Part shown: in pieces, positions 4,770 to 30,814 of the stretch
How positions within the stretch are numbered: position 1 is the first letter of the stretch
Layout of the letters: each line of letters begins with the position of its first letter
Origin: Pseudonocardia sulfidoxydans NBRC 16205
GTDB taxonomy: Bacteria; Actinomycetota; Actinomycetes; Mycobacteriales; Pseudonocardiaceae
NCBI RefSeq assembly: GCF_007989085.1
Contig: NZ_BJVJ01000028.1
Location: forward strand, 1-64,000
Length of the DNA: 64,000 nucleotides
Reading direction: 5' to 3'
Notes under the pieces: model-generated
What the model was told of the DNA's origin: nothing
The model's database searches: none
Seen by the model: the letters and a program-made list of their open reading frames with translations, nothing else
Program-made: the position numbers and the translations under genes

Positions 4770-5474
4770 TTATCGCAGGTGTGAACCGAACCAGTTGAGC
4801 ATCCGCTGCCAGGCCTCGGCGGCGGCGTCGGGGTCGGCGTCGAAGCGGTGGCCGGTCAGTGGGAACGTCACGAGGTCGGTGGCGACGCGGGCGCTGTCGG
4901 TGGCGTCGCGCAGCTGTCCGATCCCGGGGTGTTCGCCGCCCTCGGCCGGGGTGCCGTAGATGCCGAGCCAGGGGCAGGTCAGCGACGACGCGGCGTCGAG
5001 CAGCTCGGGCAGGCCGTCGGACGTGGGGGTGGTGACCCCGCCGCCGCCGACGGTGACGGCTGCGCCGAGGGTGCGTCTGGCCGCGACGAGGAGGGCGACG
5101 GAACCACCGAGGTCGAACCCGACGACGCCCATGCGGTCGGCCTGGACGTCGTGCTCGGCGAGCCAGCCGAACGCGGTGTCGGTGTCGGCCATGACCTCTT
5201 CGCGGTCGAGCTTGTCGACCTGCTCCTGTACGCGCTCGTCGGAGTGCGCGGCGTCGATCTCGTCGGCACCGTCGCGGTGGTACAGATGGGGCGCCACGGC
5301 CAGCCACCCGTCACCGGCGATGCCGGAGACGAGGTTGCGGACGCTCTCGGTGACACCCCGCGCTTCGTGGAGCACGACGATCCCCCCGCGCACCGAGCCG
5401 TCGGGCTCGGCAACGGTCAGCCGCAGCCGGCTGCCGTCGAGGAGCGGGACGGTCTCCGTCCGGATCTCGGTCAT
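4770..5474 (-). CDS. Dienelactone hydrolase family protein
   Basis: This 234-residue alpha/beta hydrolase has the family features: VVLHEARGVTESVRNLVSGI near residue 35 (the E of the dienelactone hydrolase nucleophile environment), VGFDLGGSVALL around residue 120 in the nucleophile-elbow position, and a C-terminal FPLTGHRFDADPDAAAEAW with the catalytic histidine. The elbow carries D where cysteine or serine is usual (GFDLGG rather than GFCxGG), so the nucleophile may be absent and activity is uncertain. It is transcribed away from the aminotransferase gene and towards aacS, with a 37-base gap to it. Confidence 0.8.
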   Translation of the reverse strand: MTEIRTETVPLLDGSRLRLTVAEPDGSVRGGIVVLHEARGVTESVRNLVSGIAGDGWLAVAPHLYHRDGADEIDAAHSDERVQEQVDKLDREEVMADTDTAFGWLAEHDVQADRMGVVGFDLGGSVALLVAARRTLGAAVTVGGGGVTTPTSDGLPELLDAASSLTCPWLGIYGTPAEGGEHPGIGQLRDATDSARVATDLVTFPLTGHRFDADPDAAAEAWQRMLNWFGSHLR

Positions 5475-6587: not shown

Positions 6588-6606
6588 GCCGCGCAGCGCG
6601 CAGACG

Positions 6607-6638
6607 AACGGCCCGGGGACCGAGGTCCCCGGGCCGTT
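6607..6638. terminator. Perfect 14-bp hairpin between convergent genes
   Basis: AACGGCCCGGGGAC at 6607-6620 pairs perfectly with GTCCCCGGGCCGTT at 6625-6638 across a CGAG loop. It sits 20 bp after the aminotransferase stop and 54 bp after the end of the convergent GlsB gene. No U-tract of note follows, so it may act as a bidirectional hairpin terminator of the actinobacterial type. Confidence 0.75.
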
Positions 6639-6692
6639 CTGTTCAGCGAAGCGGCGTTCAGGTGCGCCGCCCGTCGGTCAGCTGCGCAGCGA

Positions 6693-8080: not shown

Positions 8081-8108
8081 ACCCCTTGCTCCGATCGGAG
8101 CAAGGGGT
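8081..8108. terminator. 28-bp perfect palindrome, terminator or operator
   Basis: ACCCCTTGCTCCGA at 8081-8094 is followed directly by its exact reverse complement at 8095-8108. It lies upstream of the response-regulator gene. As RNA it would form a long stem with a minimal loop. The lack of a spacer is more typical of a protein-binding site or replication-prone palindrome than of a normal terminator. Confidence 0.45.
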
Positions 8109-8518: not shown

Positions 8519-10540
8519 TCAGAGTCCTCGGCGGGCCAGCAGCGGCGCGATCTCGGGGTCGCGGCCGCGGAAGGCCCGGTAGGCCTCCATCGGTTCGACG
8601 GCCCCGCCGCGCGACAGCAGTGCCGTGCGGAACGCCTCGCCGTTCTCGCGGCGCAGGCCGCCGTTCTCGGTGAACCACTCCACGGTGTCGGCGTCGAGGA
8701 CCTCCGACCAGATGTAGGAGTAGTAGCCCGCGCTGTAGCCGCCCGCGAAGACGTGGTTGAAGTAGGTGCTGCGGTACCGGGGCGGGACCGTGTCGAGCGT
8801 GATGCCGGCGTCGGCCAGGGCGCGCGCCTCGAAGTCCTGCACCTCGTCGGCGGTGGGGACGTCGTCGGTGAGGGTGTGCCACGCCTGGTCGAGGACGGCC
8901 GCGGCGAGGTACTCGGTCGTCGCGAAGCCCTCGCCGTAGGCCCGGCCCGCGACCAGCTTCTCGACGAGCTCGGCCGGCATCGGCTCGCCCGTCTCGTGGT
9001 GGCGGGCGTACCGGGCGAGGACCTCCGGCCACAGCGACCACATCTCGTTGACCTGCGACGGGAACTCGACGAAGTCGCGCGGCACGCTCGTCCCGGAGAA
9101 CCGCGGGTGGGTGACGTCGGAGAGCAGCCCGTGCAGGGCGTGGCCGAACTCGTGGAACAGCGTCGTGACCTCGTCGAAGGTCATGAGGGTGGGCTCGCCG
9201 TCGGTGGGCCGGGGGATGTTGAGGGTGTTCATCACGACGGGCCGCTGCCCGAGCAGCCGCGACTGCGACACGAGCGCGTTCATCCAGGCGCCGCCACGCT
9301 TGGAGTCGCGGGCGTAGGCGTCGAGGCCGTAGAGGCCGAGCGGCCCGGAGTCGTCGGAGACCTCCCAGACGCGGACGTCGTCGTGGTACATCGTGAGATC
9401 GTCGCGTTCGGCGAACCGCAGCCCGTAGAGGGCGCCCGCGGCGTGGAACACGCCGTCGTGCAGCACACGGTCGAGCTCCAGGTAGGGGCGCAGGGCGGCG
9501 GTGTCGACGGAGAAGCGTTCCCTGCGGACGCGTTCGGCGTGGAACGACCAGTCCCACGGCTGCAGCGGCTCGTCGCCTGCCGCCTCCTGCAGCTCCGCGG
9601 CCTCGGCCTTCGCGTTGGCGACGGCTGGTGGGACGAGGTCGGCGAGCAGCCCGCGGACGGCGTCGACGGAGCCGGCGGTGCTGTCGGCGGCGACGTAGGA
9701 GGCGTGGTCGCGGAACCCGAGCAGCCGCGCCCGTTCGGCGCGCAGCGCGGCGAGCTCGGCGAGGATCGCGCGGGTGTCGTGGTCGCCGCCGCGGGCCCCG
9801 CGCTCGACCGAGGCCCGGAACAGCTCCTCGCGCAGCGGGCGGTCGGTGAGCGATGCCAGCGCGGGCTGGCTGGTCGGCAGGACGAGCGTGAGCAGGTAGC
9901 CGTCCCGGCCCCTGGCGGCGGCCGCCCCCGCAGCGGCTGAGACCGCGCCGGACGACAGGCCGTCGAGCCGGGCCGGGTCGTCGACGGCGACGGCCGAGGC
10001 GTTCGTGTCGGCGAGCAGGTGGCTGCCGAAGGCCGTCGACAGTGTGGAGATGCGCGCGTTGAGCTCTCGCAGCCGGGACTTGCCGGCCTCGTCGACCTCG
10101 GCGCCGTCGCGGACGGCCTCGTCGACGAGCTTCTCCAGCAGCCGGTGCGCCTCCGGGTCCAGCCCCAGCGCGTCGCGGCGTTCGTGCAGGTCACGGAGGC
10201 GGGCGAACAGCCGCGGGTCGAGCGCGATGGCGTCGCGGTGCGCGGCGAGCTTCGGCGCGATCTCGGCCTGCAGCGCCTCGATGGCCGCGTTGGTGTGGGC
10301 GCTCGCGCGGCTGAAGAACACCGTCGACACCCGGTCGAGGATGCGCCCGGACCGCTCCAGCGCGGCGACGGTGTTCTCGAACGTCGCCGGCTCCGGGTTC
10401 GTGACGATGGCCTCGACCTCGGCGCGCTGCTCGGCCATGCCGGCGTCGAACGCGGGGGCGTAGTGCTCGTCGGCGATGCGCCGGTAGTCGGGCAGCTGGT
10501 AGGGCAGGTCGCTCGCGCGCAGGAACGGGTTGTCGCTCAC
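8519..10540 (-). CDS. M3 family metallopeptidase (peptidyl-dipeptidase Dcp type)
   Basis: The 673-residue protein has the zinc-binding motif LFHEFGHALHGLL (HExxH) with the downstream glutamate region VEFPSQVNEMWS, as in the thimet oligopeptidase/Dcp family, whose Dcp members have about 680 residues. The N-terminal helical domain (NPFLRASDLPYQLPDY) is also typical of Dcp. It probably degrades short peptides in the cytoplasm. The GTG at 10540 is chosen because homology begins there; it overlaps the stop of the upstream GMC gene by four bases. A TACGTT hexamer seven bases upstream suggests an additional leaderless transcript. Confidence 0.92.
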   Translation of the reverse strand: MSDNPFLRASDLPYQLPDYRRIADEHYAPAFDAGMAEQRAEVEAIVTNPEPATFENTVAALERSGRILDRVSTVFFSRASAHTNAAIEALQAEIAPKLAAHRDAIALDPRLFARLRDLHERRDALGLDPEAHRLLEKLVDEAVRDGAEVDEAGKSRLRELNARISTLSTAFGSHLLADTNASAVAVDDPARLDGLSSGAVSAAAGAAAARGRDGYLLTLVLPTSQPALASLTDRPLREELFRASVERGARGGDHDTRAILAELAALRAERARLLGFRDHASYVAADSTAGSVDAVRGLLADLVPPAVANAKAEAAELQEAAGDEPLQPWDWSFHAERVRRERFSVDTAALRPYLELDRVLHDGVFHAAGALYGLRFAERDDLTMYHDDVRVWEVSDDSGPLGLYGLDAYARDSKRGGAWMNALVSQSRLLGQRPVVMNTLNIPRPTDGEPTLMTFDEVTTLFHEFGHALHGLLSDVTHPRFSGTSVPRDFVEFPSQVNEMWSLWPEVLARYARHHETGEPMPAELVEKLVAGRAYGEGFATTEYLAAAVLDQAWHTLTDDVPTADEVQDFEARALADAGITLDTVPPRYRSTYFNHVFAGGYSAGYYSYIWSEVLDADTVEWFTENGGLRRENGEAFRTALLSRGGAVEPMEAYRAFRGRDPEIAPLLARRGL

Positions 10541-12051
10541 ACGTCCCAACGTAGCGCCGCGGCGCGTTCCCCCAGCATGATCGCGCTGGCAGCGGGCCCC
10601 CTTCGGGGGACGGCGGGGAACACCGAGGTGTCGACGACGCGCAGCCCCTTCGTCCCGCGGACCCGCAGCTCGGGGTCGCACACCGGGCCGATGGCCGCGG
10701 TCCCGGACAGGTGCGACGACGACGTGAGGTGGTCGCGGATCCATCCGTCGAGCCGGGTGTCGTTGCCCAGGACGAAACCCTCGGGTTCGACGCGGGTGCC
10801 GAGACCCGCCCGCAGCAGGTCGGCGGCGATCCGGACGGCCGCACGCAGCCGTCGCCGGTCGGCCTCGGTGCGCAGGTAGCGGTGTTCGGTGCGGCCGGGG
10901 GTGAGCAGCCCGCTGCGTTCGGGGCGTTGCAGCGCGCACATCACGTGCAGTGGCCCGCCGGGGGTGAACGGCCGTGTGAACAGCAGCAGCTCCAGGTCGC
11001 CTGCGGGGTCGGCGCCGGAGTCGAGGTGCAGGGCGACCTGCGCGGTGACGGCGTGCGGGTGCGGCTGCGCGGTCTCGTGGGGGCGGAAGGGCAGGAAGAC
11101 GGCCGGGTGGTCGGAGAACCCGATGCCGACGGGCAGGTCGTGGCGGACGCGGATGCCGGCGTCCCGCAGTGTGTCGCCGGGCCCGATGCCGGCCCGCATC
11201 AGCAGCCGCGGCGTCGCGAGGGCCCCGGCGGCGAGGACGACCTCCCCGGCCTCGACCGTGCCGGACGCGGTCCGCACCCCGACCGCCCGCAACCGGTCCA
11301 GCTCGATGCTGGTCACCGGCGTGTCGGTGCGGACGGTGAGCCCACCCCCGAGATGCACCCGAGCGTCGTCGGCCGGCCGGAGCACCGCGCTGGTGCGCAT
11401 CTCGGCGGGCTGCGCGCGCAGGTAGGCGTCGGCGGCGCTCACCCGCGCCCCGTCGACGACGTTCGACGGGACCAGGCCCGCCCCGGGCGGGCCGCCGGCG
11501 TTCTTGTCGGGTTCGTCCGGGAAGCCGAGGGCGGCAGCGGCGGCGAGGAAGGGCTCGGTGGTGGGCGCTTCCAGGGCCCCCGACGGTCTGCGGACCGGTA
11601 TCGGCCCCGCGTCGCCGTGATCCTCGGAGACGAAGTCGAGGTCGCGTTCACTGTGCACGTAGAACGGCAGTGCCTCGTCGTAGGAGAGGCCGGGGACCGC
11701 CCAATCGTCGAGGTCGGCTCGGGTGGCACGGACGAAGTAGGCGCCGTTGATCGCGCTCGACCCGCCGAGTACCCGGCCCCGGGGCAGGATCGCGTCGACA
11801 CCTCGCGCCAGCTCTGCGGGGTAGGCCCAGTTGAGCGGATGGCCCGGCACGGTGGCGGACAGGTCAGAGGCTCGTGAGCGGTAATAGTCGCTATAGCGAC
11901 TATTACCGCTCACAGGGTCGGGGCCGGCCTCCAGCAGCAGCACACTCCGGGACCGCTTCTCCGCCAGCCGCGCCGCCAGCACACAGCCCGCGCTCCCACC
12001 CCCGACGACGACCACGTCGAACCGTTCACCGACCACGAGGGCAGGATGCAT
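10537..12051 (-). CDS. GMC-family FAD-dependent oxidoreductase (MftG-like), carrying a palindromic insert
   Basis: The 504-residue protein starts with the FAD dinucleotide fold FDVVVVGGGSAGCVLAARLA. It has the GMC signature PRGRVLGGSSAINGAYFVRA and ends with the C-terminal block SHLSGTAAIG (active-site histidine region) plus VVDTSVFPAVPRRGPAASAI. It resembles the mycofactocin-associated GMC dehydrogenase MftG and choline dehydrogenases; no mft genes are nearby, so the substrate is open. Residues around 50-62 (VSGNSRYSDYYRS) are encoded by a 40-bp palindrome repeated elsewhere in the window. The frame stays open through the insert. The ATG at 12051 overlaps the divergent aminopeptidase start; a GTG at 12036 is an alternative. 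Confidence 0.85.
   Translation of the reverse strand: MHPALVVGERFDVVVVGGGSAGCVLAARLAEKRSRSVLLLEAGPDPVSGNSRYSDYYRSRASDLSATVPGHPLNWAYPAELARGVDAILPRGRVLGGSSAINGAYFVRATRADLDDWAVPGLSYDEALPFYVHSERDLDFVSEDHGDAGPIPVRRPSGALEAPTTEPFLAAAAALGFPDEPDKNAGGPPGAGLVPSNVVDGARVSAADAYLRAQPAEMRTSAVLRPADDARVHLGGGLTVRTDTPVTSIELDRLRAVGVRTASGTVEAGEVVLAAGALATPRLLMRAGIGPGDTLRDAGIRVRHDLPVGIGFSDHPAVFLPFRPHETAQPHPHAVTAQVALHLDSGADPAGDLELLLFTRPFTPGGPLHVMCALQRPERSGLLTPGRTEHRYLRTEADRRRLRAAVRIAADLLRAGLGTRVEPEGFVLGNDTRLDGWIRDHLTSSSHLSGTAAIGPVCDPELRVRGTKGLRVVDTSVFPAVPRRGPAASAIMLGERAAALRWDV
10548..10553 (-). promoter_or_regulatory. -10 hexamer TACGTT for the M3 peptidase, leaderless type
   Basis: On the minus strand TACGTT ends seven bases before the GTG at 10540. 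It lies inside the last codons of the GMC oxidoreductase gene, so the peptidase could be transcribed both with that gene and alone. Confidence 0.45.
11874..11913. repeat. 40-bp perfect palindrome, family C copy 1, inside the GMC gene
   Basis: The left arm is GTGAGCGGTAATAGTCGCTA and the right arm is its exact reverse complement, so all 40 bases are self-complementary. A second copy lies at 30173-30212 with two base changes in each arm that keep every pair. Both copies are preceded by TC and followed by AGG. This copy is in frame within the oxidoreductase coding sequence. Confidence 0.9.
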
Positions 12052-13305
12052 GACGTGGCCGACCTCGCGCTGGACCTCGCCGACTTCATCTCCGCGAGCC
12101 CGACCCCGTACCACGCGGTGGCCGAGGCCGTGGCCCGGCTGACCGCCGCCGGGTTCACCGAACAGGTGGAGACCGCCGAGTGGGACACCACTCCGGGCGG
12201 GCGCTACCTGGTCCGGGACGGGACGGTGCTGGCGTGGTGGCAGCGCGGCGACGTGTCACCGCTGCGGATCTTCGCCGCCCACACCGACTCCCCCACGCTC
12301 AAGGTCAAGCCACTGCCCGACACCGGCGCCGGCGGCTGGCGACAGGTCGCCGTCGAGGTCTACGGCGGCGCGCTGTGGAACTCCTGGCTCGACCGCGACC
12401 TCGGCCTCGCCGGCCGACTCTCCCTCTACGACGGCACGTCGGTGCTGGTCGACGTGGCACGGCCGCTGCTGCGCGTCCCGCAGCTGGCCATCCACCTCGA
12501 CCGATCGGTCAACCAGGGCCTGACGCTCGACGCCCAACAGCACCTGCTGCCGATCTGGGGCCTCGGCTCCCACTCCGAGGGTGACCTGCTCGCATTCCTC
12601 GCCGACGTCGCGACAGTCGATGCCGGTGAGATCGCCGCGCACGACCTCGTCGTCCACGACCTCACCCCGCCCGCCCGCCTCGGCGAGCACGGCGAGCTGC
12701 TGGCCGCGCCCCGGCTCGACAACCTGTCGTCGGTGCACGCCGGGATCACGTCGCTGATCGCGGCCGCCGAGCGCGACCCGTCGACGACACCCGTCTTCGT
12801 CGGCTTCGACCACGAGGAGATCGGCAGTGCCACCGCCACCGGCGCCGCCGGCCCACTGCTCGAGACGCTGCTGACCCACCTCGCCGGCGGATTCGACGCC
12901 CGCTCCCGCGTCTTCGCCGCCTCCCGGGCGCTGTCGTGCGACGTCACCCACGCCGCCCACCCCAACTATCTGCACCTGCACGACCCCGGCCACCGCGCCC
13001 TGCCCAACCAGGGCCCGTCGCTGAAGGTCAACGCCAACCAGCGCTACGCCACCGACGCCCCCGGCGCCGCCGCCTGGCAGCGCGCCTGCCGGACCGCCGG
13101 CGTCGGATCGCAGTTCTTCGTCGGGAAGAACACCGTGCCGTGCGGGTCGACCGTCGGCCCGATCATCGCGACACGGCTCGGGATCCGGACCGTCGACGTC
13201 GGCATCCCCGTGCTGTCGATGCACTCCGCGCGTGAACTCTGCGGTGTGGACGACCCCGCCCATCTCGTCGCCGCCGCCACCGAATTCCTCACCGACGCGA
13301 CCTGA
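12046..13305 (+). CDS. apeB: M18 family aminopeptidase
   Basis: The 419-residue protein matches the M18 aspartyl-aminopeptidase family in length. The metal ligands are visible: AAHTDSPTLKVKP (H and D), the ADN-like region LDNLSSVHAG, FDHEEIGSATATGA (metal E pair and catalytic E), and the final SMHSARELCG histidine. These form a dinuclear zinc site in a cytosolic dodecamer in known members. The ATG at 12046 overlaps the opposite gene start at 12051; GAGGGCAGG just upstream gives a ribosome-binding site. Confidence 0.93.
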   Translation: MHDVADLALDLADFISASPTPYHAVAEAVARLTAAGFTEQVETAEWDTTPGGRYLVRDGTVLAWWQRGDVSPLRIFAAHTDSPTLKVKPLPDTGAGGWRQVAVEVYGGALWNSWLDRDLGLAGRLSLYDGTSVLVDVARPLLRVPQLAIHLDRSVNQGLTLDAQQHLLPIWGLGSHSEGDLLAFLADVATVDAGEIAAHDLVVHDLTPPARLGEHGELLAAPRLDNLSSVHAGITSLIAAAERDPSTTPVFVGFDHEEIGSATATGAAGPLLETLLTHLAGGFDARSRVFAASRALSCDVTHAAHPNYLHLHDPGHRALPNQGPSLKVNANQRYATDAPGAAAWQRACRTAGVGSQFFVGKNTVPCGSTVGPIIATRLGIRTVDVGIPVLSMHSARELCGVDDPAHLVAAATEFLTDAT

Positions 13306-19937: not shown

Positions 19938-20025
19938 TGGCGGAAGCGGAGGGATTCGAACCCCCGGACCCTTGCGGGACTCTCGCTTTCAAGGCGAGTG
20001 CATTCGGCCTCTCTGCCACGCTTCC
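19938..20025 (-). tRNA. tRNA-Ser (anticodon TGA)
   Basis: On the minus strand the acceptor arms are GGAAGCG and CGCTTCC with discriminator G and an encoded CCA at 19938-19940. The anticodon stem CTCGC/GCGAG encloses CTTGAAA, giving anticodon TGA. The long variable arm is typical of serine tRNA. Confidence 0.96.
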
Positions 20026-28518: not shown

Positions 28519-29417
28519 CCGGCGCAGACATCCATGTTCTTCCCGACCGCCACGTCGCCCGCACCCGCGGTGTGACCCGCCGGTTCGGCTCGACCGTCGC
28601 GCTCGACGGCGTCGACCTCGACGTCGCCGCCGGCACGATCACGGGCCTGCTGGGCCCGAACGGCGCGGGCAAGTCGACGCTGCTGAGCCTGCTGACGGGT
28701 CTGCGCAGGCCGGACTCGGGGGTCGCGGAGCTGTTCGGTGGCGACCCGACCGACCCTGCGCGGCGTCGGCGCCTGGGCGTCACCCCGCAGGAGACGGGCC
28801 TGCCCGACACCCTGCGCGTCGGCGAGGTGCTCACGTTCGTGTCCCGGCACTATCCGCAGCCTCTCCCGGCCGGCGAGGTGATGGAGCGGTTCGGGCTGTC
28901 GGGGCTGGGGCGGCGCCAGTGCGGCGGGCTGTCGGGCGGGCAGAAGCGTCGACTGGCGGTGGCGTTGGCGTTCGTCGGCGACCCCGCCCTGGTGGTGCTC
29001 GACGAGCCCACGACGGGTCTGGACGTCGAGGCGCGTCGCGCGCTGTGGGACGGGGTGCGCGACTTCCACCATCGCGGCGGGACCGTGCTGCTGACCAGTC
29101 ATTACCTCGACGAGATCGAGGAGTTGGCGCAGCGGGTCGTCGTCATCGGTGGCGGGAAGGTCCTCACCGAGGGCGACACCGCGTCGGTCCGCCGGGTCGT
29201 CGGGTTGTCGCTGGTCGAGCTGCGGGCGACAGCGCTGCCGGAGCTGCCGGGCGTGGTGCGCGCCGAGGTCGAGGGTGAGCGCCACCGGCTGCACACCCCG
29301 GACGCGGACCAGCTCGTCCGCGACCTGGTCCGCAGCGGCGCCCCGTTCCACGACCTGCAGGTTCGCACGGCCTCGCTCGAAGAAGCGTTCCTCACCCTCA
29401 CGGAGGTGGCGGCGTGA
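28515..29417 (+). CDS. ABC transporter ATP-binding protein
   Basis: The 300-residue ATPase of the DrrA/CcmA type has Walker A GPNGAGKST at residues 47-55, Q-loop VTPQETGLPD, signature LSGGQKRRLAVALA, Walker B ALVVLDEPTTGLD and H-loop LLTSHYLDEIEELA. The C-terminal extension RTASLEEAFLTLTEVAA is characteristic of this family. It overlaps both neighbours by four bases. Confidence 0.92.
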   Translation: MTGADIHVLPDRHVARTRGVTRRFGSTVALDGVDLDVAAGTITGLLGPNGAGKSTLLSLLTGLRRPDSGVAELFGGDPTDPARRRRLGVTPQETGLPDTLRVGEVLTFVSRHYPQPLPAGEVMERFGLSGLGRRQCGGLSGGQKRRLAVALAFVGDPALVVLDEPTTGLDVEARRALWDGVRDFHHRGGTVLLTSHYLDEIEELAQRVVVIGGGKVLTEGDTASVRRVVGLSLVELRATALPELPGVVRAEVEGERHRLHTPDADQLVRDLVRSGAPFHDLQVRTASLEEAFLTLTEVAA

Positions 29418-30163
29418 CCACGCTCGCCCTGACCCGGACCCATTTCCGGTTCCTGCTGCTGGAGAACCTGCGGGTGCCGATCGCGGTCGGATCGGCCGCG
29501 ATCTTCCCGGCATTGTCGCTGCTGTTCTTCGTCGTCCCGTTCGGGTTCGGCGACGACGTGGCCGCGGCGACGTCGGCGGTGATCCAGCTGGCGGTGTTCG
29601 GTGTGCTGTCGAGCTTCCTGTTCACGTTCGGCGTCGGGGTCGCCGACGATCGCGAGAAGGCCTGGGACCCGTACGTGCGGACGTTGCCGGCGGCGGCGAC
29701 ACCGCGGATCGTCGGCAGGTTGCTGACCGGGTTCGTGTTCGCGCTCATCGCGATCGTGCCGGTGACGATCGTGGGCGCGGCGCTGACGTCGGCGAGCGTG
29801 ACGCCGCTGCGGTTCCTGGCCGGGCTGGTCGCGATGCTGGTCGCGGGGCTGCCGTTCCTGCTCGGCGGGCTGGCCGTCGGCTACTCGATGCCGGTCAAGG
29901 CCGCGCTGCCGGTCACGCAGCTGATCTTCTTCCCGCTGGCGTTCGGCGGGGGCCTGTTCCTGCCCCCACAACTGTTCCCCGACTGGCTGCAGACGATCTC
30001 GGAGCTGCTGCCCTCGCGCGGCGCCCGTGACGTCGTGATCTGGGCGGTGCAGGGCATCACCCCGAGCGTGCTGACGATCGTCTCGTTCGCGGTGTGGATC
30101 GTCGCCACGGCGGCGATTGCCGGCTGGGCCTACCGCCGCGACGAAGGCCGCCGATTCCGCTGA
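29414..30163 (+). CDS. ABC-2 type transporter permease
   Basis: The 249-residue protein has six membrane helices (e.g. VPIAVGSAAIFPALSLLFFV, RLLTGFVFALIAIVPVTIVG, LVAMLVAGLPFLLGGLAVGY, FFPLAFGGGLFLPPQLFPD), the ABC2_membrane pattern. With the preceding ATPase it forms a drug or lipid export system of unknown substrate. Its stop lies ten bases before the second family C palindrome. Confidence 0.9.
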   Translation: MTTLALTRTHFRFLLLENLRVPIAVGSAAIFPALSLLFFVVPFGFGDDVAAATSAVIQLAVFGVLSSFLFTFGVGVADDREKAWDPYVRTLPAAATPRIVGRLLTGFVFALIAIVPVTIVGAALTSASVTPLRFLAGLVAMLVAGLPFLLGGLAVGYSMPVKAALPVTQLIFFPLAFGGGLFLPPQLFPDWLQTISELLPSRGARDVVIWAVQGITPSVLTIVSFAVWIVATAAIAGWAYRRDEGRRFR

Positions 30164-30172
30164 TGAGAGGTC

Positions 30173-30212
30173 GTGAGTGGCAATAGTCGCTATAGCGACT
30201 ATTGCCACTCAC
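30173..30212. repeat. 40-bp perfect palindrome, family C copy 2, between convergent genes
   Basis: The arm is GTGAGTGGCAATAGTCGCTA. Compared with the copy at 11874 it has T for C and C for T at arm positions 6 and 9, with matching changes in the other arm. The stop codon of the DUF1707 gene (30209-30211) is formed by this palindrome. It may serve here as a bidirectional terminator. Confidence 0.9.
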
Positions 30213-30814
30213 AGGTTTTTGAACATCCGGTACCGGCGGCGGACGATCACCGAGCCCATGGTCGTCCGCCCGTAGATGCGGAAGTGCGTCGCACCCCGCG
30301 ACGGGGCCGACGGGACCTTCGACTTCACGGTGCCCATGCCCGCGACGAGACCGTCGATGTCGGCGGAAGCGTTGTCCGGCACCAGGACCCGCGCGGAACC
30401 GGCCCCCAGCTCGAACTCGATCTCGACGACCGGGTGCACGATCTGGGCGTCGCAGAAGTCGAGCACCACCGAGCCCATCCCCGACTGCACCCGCAGCCGG
30501 GCGGGAACCTGCCAGTTCCCGCTGCGCCGCAACGACCCCATCCCGGTGCGCAGCACGACGGGCGGCCCGGCGGGCGTCGAGAGCGCGGGCGCGGGGACGG
30601 TGACGTCGAGCGGGTTGCCCGGCAGGTCGGCCAGGGGCGGCATCAGCTCGGCGGCGTAGCGCGCCGCGTAGACGACCGCGATCCGCTCCTCCAGCTCCGC
30701 CACCGTGATCCGGCCCTCGGACAGCGCCTGGTGCAGACGTTGCGCGGCACGCTCGCGGTCGGCATCGGAGATACGCATCCCCGGGGACTCGCCTGGCGAC
30801 GGCTGCACGCTCAC
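30209..30814 (-). CDS. DUF1707 domain protein with a LiaF-like C-terminal part
   Basis: With GTG at 30814 the protein has 201 residues. MRISDADRERAAQRLHQALS and EGRITVAELEERIAVVYAAR form the DUF1707 (SHOCT-related) motif, common in actinobacteria. The rest (VLRTGMGSLRRSGNWQVPAR, MGSVVLDFCDAQIVHP, YGRTTMGSVIVRRR) has the repeated GMGS/beta-strand pattern of the cell-wall-active antibiotics response (LiaF/DUF2154) domain. The TAGGCT hexamer before 30814 decides this start over the ATG at 30778. The role is unknown; it may sense envelope stress. Confidence 0.82.
   Translation of the reverse strand: MSVQPSPGESPGMRISDADRERAAQRLHQALSEGRITVAELEERIAVVYAARYAAELMPPLADLPGNPLDVTVPAPALSTPAGPPVVLRTGMGSLRRSGNWQVPARLRVQSGMGSVVLDFCDAQIVHPVVEIEFELGAGSARVLVPDNASADIDGLVAGMGTVKSKVPSAPSRGATHFRIYGRTTMGSVIVRRRYRMFKNL

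Follow-up and report, generated by a model that had tools for sequence, protein, structure and literature searches.

A dispersed 40-bp palindrome of Pseudonocardia, concentrated at gene 3' ends and read in frame within an MftG-like oxidoreductase gene

The two arms of a dispersed 40-bp palindrome in Pseudonocardia tend to change as matched pairs between species, and this holds also for a copy that is read in frame within an MftG-like GMC oxidoreductase gene of Pseudonocardia sulfidoxydans NBRC 16205. The repeat is probably a family of REP-like hairpins at gene 3' ends, present in Pseudonocardia and related genera, with rare coding copies that resemble the RPE elements of Rickettsia. Our analysis started from a window of 64,000 nucleotides, the first 64 kb of contig NZ_BJVJ01000028.1, and was extended to the rest of the genome and to related genomes.

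The palindrome in the MftG-like gene

In the window copy (Table 1), two 18-bp arms enclose a self-complementary centre of 4 nt. By simple arithmetic, 64 kb should contain about 6e-8 perfect 40-bp palindromes if the four letters are equally frequent and about 2e-6 if the GC content is 72%; two are present in the window. Folded with 10 nt on each side, the sequence at 11874-11913 gives -35.1 kcal/mol as RNA (z -9.36) and -22.2 kcal/mol as DNA (z -9.30). At the Rfam gathering score the palindrome found no match, and the window matches were three tRNAs only, at 2447-2519, 2571-2660 and 19941-20025 (-). Two further strong inverted repeats of the window, at 6606-6639 and 8081-8108, have letters unrelated to the palindrome family.

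Table 1. Features of the window that concern the palindrome family
Feature	Coordinates	Strand	Remarks
Perfect 40-bp palindrome GTGAGCGGTAATAGTCGCTATAGCGACTATTACCGCTCAC	11874..11913	.	20/20 pairs; ends exactly at these coordinates
Flank AGGGTC on the plus strand, GACCCT on the gene strand	11914..11919	-	CCCT-type side, upstream in the gene
Flank GGCTC on the plus strand, GAGCC on the gene strand	11869..11873	-	GACC-type side, downstream in the gene
MftG-like GMC oxidoreductase, 504 codons and stop	10537..12051	-	palindrome at residues 47-59, phase 0
M18 family aminopeptidase, divergent neighbour	12046..13305	+	start overlaps the GMC start
Second family copy GTGAGTGGCAATAGTCGCTATAGCGACTATTGCCACTCAC	30173..30212	.	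usual type of site, flanked by the 3' ends of two convergent genes
Gene beside the second copy (as called)	29414..30163	+
Gene beside the second copy (as called)	30209..30778	-	stop inside the palindrome

The open reading frame enclosing the palindrome spans 10537-12114 of the minus strand, and the ATG at 12051 gives the 504-residue product. An earlier note on this DNA had placed the palindrome in frame within a GMC oxidoreductase gene that stays open on both sides, and both statements were borne out: the repeat encodes the peptide VSGNSRYSDYYRS, its 40th base opens codon 60, and frame 1 is open on both strands, while frames 2 and 3 hold TGA and TAA inside the repeat. The host protein matches the Pfam families GMC_oxred_N and GMC_oxred_C; its best-scoring family is TIGR03970 (MftG), at 368.4 bits and below the cut-off of 387.45. 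The repeat-encoded residues are directly preceded by LLLEAGPDP. Judged by this motif and by alignment, the repeat lies inside the FAD-binding part, after LLLEAGP, and not between the FAD-binding fold and the substrate region as had been suggested. In an alignment with fatty acid photodecarboxylase, for which a solved structure exists, 8 residues are gapped at the palindrome stretch; a single-sequence structure prediction of the host enzyme reached a mean pLDDT of 34.8, and the model was not used.

The GMC protein has a match in 61 of 62 genus genomes, some of the matches being paralogues, and the 30 loci retrieved, the window's own included, were aligned. The palindrome occurs in two of them, that of P. 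sulfidoxydans (G000) and that of the close relative G064 (GTGAGTGGCAATCGTCGCTACAGCGACGATTGCCACTCAC on the gene strand), both with 18/18 stem pairs, and at the 28 other loci no 40-mer of the loop exceeds 13/18. The pattern that the earlier note had named as refuting its reading, with the same residues in all orthologues and no palindromic DNA sequence, was thus not observed. The extra block of 13-15 residues anticipated at the palindrome was not found in clean form. From LLLEAGP to NW, G000 has 120 nt and G064 has 117; of the other orthologues 24 have 99, three have 114 and G060 has 90. The window gene thus exceeds the usual length by a net 7 residues, within a loop that is already variable. 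The copy is probably tolerated because it is sited in this variable-length loop of the FAD-binding part.

The orthologue tree does not separate G000, G064 and G060 and places G017 outside; the copy may therefore stem from one insertion followed by loss in G060 or from two insertions. Between G000 and G064 the third-codon divergence of the GMC gene is 0.248 versus 0.131 over all positions, as would be expected for a gene under purifying selection.

A dispersed family at gene 3' ends

The genome of P. sulfidoxydans contains 247 matches to the palindrome pattern at up to 3 mismatches, versus 0 for the reversed-pattern control, and 319 matches to a looser pattern in which only GTGAG, GTCGC and their mirror images are fixed. 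Of the 62 Pseudonocardia genomes, 32 have one or more matches to the looser pattern; the reversed control matched in one genome. In the wider family the palindrome was found in 49 of 297 genomes, which belong to 13 of 46 genera (Pseudonocardia included), many with one or few matches. A stricter pattern was limited to 3 of 41 genomes, namely P. sulfidoxydans and two congeners, and was found in none of 16 genomes from other families of the order; among the matches listed in one scan there were at least 78 named stretches, all of them from Pseudonocardia. Another genus of the family (G172, G118, G222, G276 and G191) has copies with a different middle, for example GTGAGCACTAAC..., which is largely self-complementary, and G276 alone has 76 matches.

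The design of the repeat is nearly constant. A free-length search for palindromes of 30-69 bp in 1.23 Mb of the P. sulfidoxydans genome returned 74 candidates, 70 of exactly 40 bp and four that resemble unrelated hairpins; longer versions occur in relatives, such as a 42-bp copy in G017. The consensus 18-nt arm, searched for as the exact consensus, was never found alone in the 1.23 Mb, and on this ground the terminal inverted repeats of an insertion sequence and an uptake-like signal were rejected.

The flank consensus, CCCT-[40]-GACC, is asymmetric (GACC being GGTC on the other strand) and contains no U-tract. Flanks of 219 copies were of the CCCT/GACC kind in either orientation in 123 cases, CCCT-type on both sides in 40, GACC-type on both sides in 8 and unclear on one side in 48; these counts and the gene-end counts below still include two likely ordinary coding hairpins (C1:64054 and G017:131268) among 222 hits. 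Within the 123 asymmetric copies, the left and right flanks match no better than shuffles as target-site duplications of 3, 4, 5, 6 or 8 nt, and the 7-nt register alone exceeded all 1000 shuffles, slightly (0.408 versus a mean of 0.382). A clean insertion with target duplication is unsupported by the flanks and by the sites compared.

The position of the copies relative to genes, which were predicted with a home-made simple codon-usage caller, was examined for 99 hits of the P. sulfidoxydans genome (one of them false) out of 247-319. In the 1.23-Mb sample, 67 of 69 copies are at gene borders. A convergent spacer holds 37 of these 67, versus 13.2 expected from spacer length; tandem spacers hold 26 (32.6 expected) and divergent spacers 4 (21.2 expected), and 36 of 187 convergent gene pairs carry a copy. 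When copies of several species were pooled, near-identical genomes included, 199 of 222 lay no more than 60 nt from a gene 3' end, in 101 cases on both sides; 15 had no nearby gene 3' end and 8 were called intragenic, two of the eight resembling unrelated coding hairpins. The distances to gene ends show two spikes, one of 63 ends at -4, where the TGA within the GTGAG of the repeat is the stop codon, and one of 116 ends at +3 to +6 nt after the gene end.

The usual site is the stop codon or a few bases past it, often between two convergent genes, where transcription from either side would place an 18-bp hairpin at the transcript 3' end. From position and fold we infer that the hairpin may act as a bidirectional terminator or as a barrier to 3' exonucleases. 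A different account, possible but rather unlikely in our estimate, has the palindrome as a non-autonomous MITE-like element with a transposase yet to be identified, its gene-end bias arising purely from purifying selection and without any function at 3' ends. The existence of intragenic copies agrees with such an element. It would have to be reconciled with spikes at -4 and at +3 to +6 nt from the stops that are sharper than expected from avoidance alone, with the want of a single common-form arm in 1.23 Mb and with the absence of a clear target duplication.

Copies within genes are rare. Coding copies number 2 of 69 in the 1.23-Mb sample, one of them 32 nt from a gene end, so the GMC copy is the sole deep intragenic case among the 69. 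A second coding host was found in SoxA (assigned by TIGR01372 at 1161.3 bits, with a cut-off of 1164). The in-frame copy VSADSRHGDYRHS, with 18/20 pairs, is present in the P. autotrophica record L232 and in G024 and G048, and at the same place the SoxA of G053 has VRGDSRSGDYRRS, with 17/20 pairs. Three of 25 aligned SoxA loci (G024, G048 and G053) carry the copy; the other 22 lack the peptide, and in G050 and G076, whose DNA was inspected, no palindrome was seen. By motif reading, the palindrome in SoxA (L232, L305 and L309) replaces a native stretch after an apparent nucleotide-binding beta strand, a situation similar to that in the MftG-like enzyme. With SoxA as a second enzyme that holds the repeat in frame, besides the MftG-like one, the comparison with the Rickettsia RPE made in the earlier note is apt in the sense of "works like".

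The P. oroxyli record L217 has a copy in a RecB-like gene (palindrome at 5229), where the RecB match extends to residue 906 and the repeat starts from residue 911. Because the match ends before the repeat, we prefer to regard this as a copy at the end of a gene with translation continuing into a tail; the protein has a tail of about 110 residues beyond the gene-end palindrome, apparently by such read-through. The remaining intragenic calls are L191, 17 nt from its gene end, and C2:152639, at a distance of 32 nt.

Turnover of sites and paired changes of the arms

Sites of the repeat are partly shared between species. Where both flanks of a P. sulfidoxydans copy could be found in a relative, the palindrome was present at 13 of 20 sites in SCN 73-27 (G060), 6 of 14 in P. 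dioxanivorans (G017) and 3 of 5 in G064, and none was detected at the other 7, 8 and 2 sites, some of which hold decayed or longer palindromes. One G064 site resembles an internal deletion of the palindrome, and one G064 copy, compared with G017, looks like an insertion next to a repeated GGTC. This difference in presence between relatives, together with the GGTC case, speaks for the MITE-like element considered above; under the 3'-end hairpin reading that we prefer, new copies would likewise appear at fresh sites, at a low rate.

Pairing of the arms was followed in several sets, of which the orthologous pairs, the gene-end set and the 135 copies were gathered under a pairing filter of 15/20 or more, so that their pairing rate is partly built in. 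The 35 unique orthologous copy pairs between species were aligned by the flanks on both sides, some sites occurring in more than one species pair. Their 630 stem pairs comprise 511 that are the same, 77 with two-sided changes, 72 of these Watson-Crick in both species, and 42 with one-sided changes. After two false hits were dropped, 220 copies were left, of which 135 are distinct (124 up to strand); in these pairing-filtered copies 96.2% of stem pairs are Watson-Crick, versus 12-32% when the arms are slid. In 48 hand-chosen diverse copies from many genomes, 97.6% of the cells pair, and the covariation score of 0.516 is above all 500 shuffles (0.125) and every slide, whereas the number of double-change pairs was reached by 18 of the 500 shuffles. 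Eight stem pairs that are free of the search pattern were also scored without the pairing filter: 541 of 552 pair in the sampled part of the P. sulfidoxydans genome, and the relatives give 83 of 96 (G017), 63 of 72 (G060) and 22 of 24 (G064).

The coding copy in the GMC gene follows the same rule. G000 and G064 differ there at 7 positions; six of them make up three mirrored Watson-Crick pairs (6/35, 9/32 and 13/28), and 7 positions drawn at random would contain three or more mirrored pairs with a probability of 0.002. Since these paired changes took place even though they alter four residues, selection on the hairpin, or a process that works on it as DNA, is favoured over selection on the peptide. 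Alternatively, a different copy may have been re-inserted at the same GMC site. In SoxA the copies are less well preserved, with mostly one-sided differences.

These observations bear on the proposal, which we consider unlikely, that the palindrome is a two-fold symmetric site bound by a chromosomal protein and is conserved in its duplex form, not as a hairpin. Such a site would account for the near-constant length of 40 bp and for the strong conservation of the ends (GTGAG) and of the near-centre letters (GTCGC), a conservation that is partly built in because the search patterns fixed these letters. However, the eight middle positions of each arm vary freely and yet stay complementary, a pairing that symmetric contact does not need, and the concentration at gene 3' ends would be odd for a site of this kind. 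In the 3'-end hairpin reading, the complementarity of the arms would be kept by hairpin-templated correction (template switching), by selection on the hairpin, or by both.

How similar orthologous copies are to one another was compared with random copies across species. The 13 orthologous copies of G000 and SCN 73-27 have a mean of 8.15 differences of 40 versus 7.7 for random cross-species copies, and the 6 of SCN 73-27 and P. dioxanivorans have 10.0 versus 9.63, so that in these two species pairs a shared site brings no greater similarity. The 6 copies shared by G000 and P. dioxanivorans lean towards likeness (5.17 versus 8.5, shuffle p 0.04). In the records of P. autotrophica and P. halophobica the copies are identical (3 pairs), and the flanks show 100% identity at the sites compared. 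One may tentatively propose that the sites are inherited while the arms drift together genome-wide in each species, through hairpin copying or correction that rewrites both arms and involves no RAYT, although we lean against it. The likeness between G000 and P. dioxanivorans copies counts against such a genome-wide co-drift. If true, it needs hairpin copying fast enough to rewrite the arms, also in coding copies, where the protein would have been changed to keep the palindrome.

Relation to known repeats

In the study by Di Nocera et al. 2013 (PMC3733652), REPs have stems of 5-13 bp (GTAG) or 8-9 bp (CGTC), lie near the 3' ends of open reading frames in convergent or tandem spacers, provide stop codons by their termini, and include some intragenic copies, for instance in recB. 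The Pseudonocardia repeat has much in common with them: it is a short high-copy palindrome, mostly extragenic, favours convergent and tandem spacers, supplies stop codons with its termini and has some intragenic copies, including in recombination-repair genes. The CGTC REPs are, according to the same paper, likewise without a dedicated transposase. In contrast to REPs, the repeat has an 18-bp stem and a near-constant 40 bp, is flanked by CCCT/GACC with no unpaired GTAG or CGTC tag, and belongs to an actinobacterial family; the string "actinobact" is absent from the main text of PMC3733652.

These habits would suit classical REP elements moved by a RAYT (Y1 tyrosine transposase) and so far unreported in this group, yet we hold this explanation to be very improbable. 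No match to Y1_Tnp was found in the P. sulfidoxydans genome, nor in any of the palindrome-rich genomes among the 62 of the genus. A Y1 match is present in 5 of the 62, and there the palindrome counts are 0 to 2 (G008 0, G020 2, G015 0, G003 0, G022 0). The stem length and the flank tag, compared with those given in PMC3733652, also disagree with it. Mobilisation by RAYT is ruled against by the absence of a Y1 match in palindrome-rich genomes, and new copies of the hairpin would apparently appear without a Y1/RAYT transposase. Because its tag, stem length and transposase content depart from those of REPs, we do not file the palindrome as a REP member.

The coding copies have their nearest parallel in the RPE, which a review (PMC2229807) describes as 105-146 bp long, with insertions in 19 reading frames. 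Like the RPE and the Wolbachia WPE, the Pseudonocardia repeat is a palindrome read in frame inside conserved protein genes; it is set apart from the RPE by its 40 bp, its other lineage and the rarity of its coding copies. With frame 1 open on both strands, a gene can retain a copy that lands within it in that phase. Inverted repeats are kept within protein-coding DNA also in the mitochondria of Nematomorpha, as PMC6649704 reports, but there both arms encode conserved protein, whereas the Pseudonocardia repeat codes for a variable loop and is one member of a dispersed family. Template switching is presented in PMC8794818 as a mutational route that keeps two arms complementary by multi-base paired changes in RNA genes; here we propose it for dispersed bacterial palindromes. 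The palindrome is thus comparable in its behaviour to REP elements, and its coding copies to RPE, and we file it with neither. Among the results listed by literature searches that left out most subscription papers, none described the 40-bp palindrome of Pseudonocardia in its title or abstract.

Several observations weigh against the favoured explanation of a 3'-end hairpin family with rare coding copies: the flank consensus is free of a U-tract and of a clear target-site duplication, insertion is not seen cleanly, the MftG-like gene exceeds the usual length by 18-21 nt instead of 40, and the SoxA copy takes up the room of native sequence. The family adds an actinobacterial member to the REP/RPE type of repeats, with a near-constant 40-bp design and with pairs of genomes at useful distances. 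Where sister species share the site of a palindrome and its arms show matched changes, the question of how arm complementarity is kept becomes a testable one, and the coding copies help to tell selection on RNA hairpins at gene ends from purely mutational copying.
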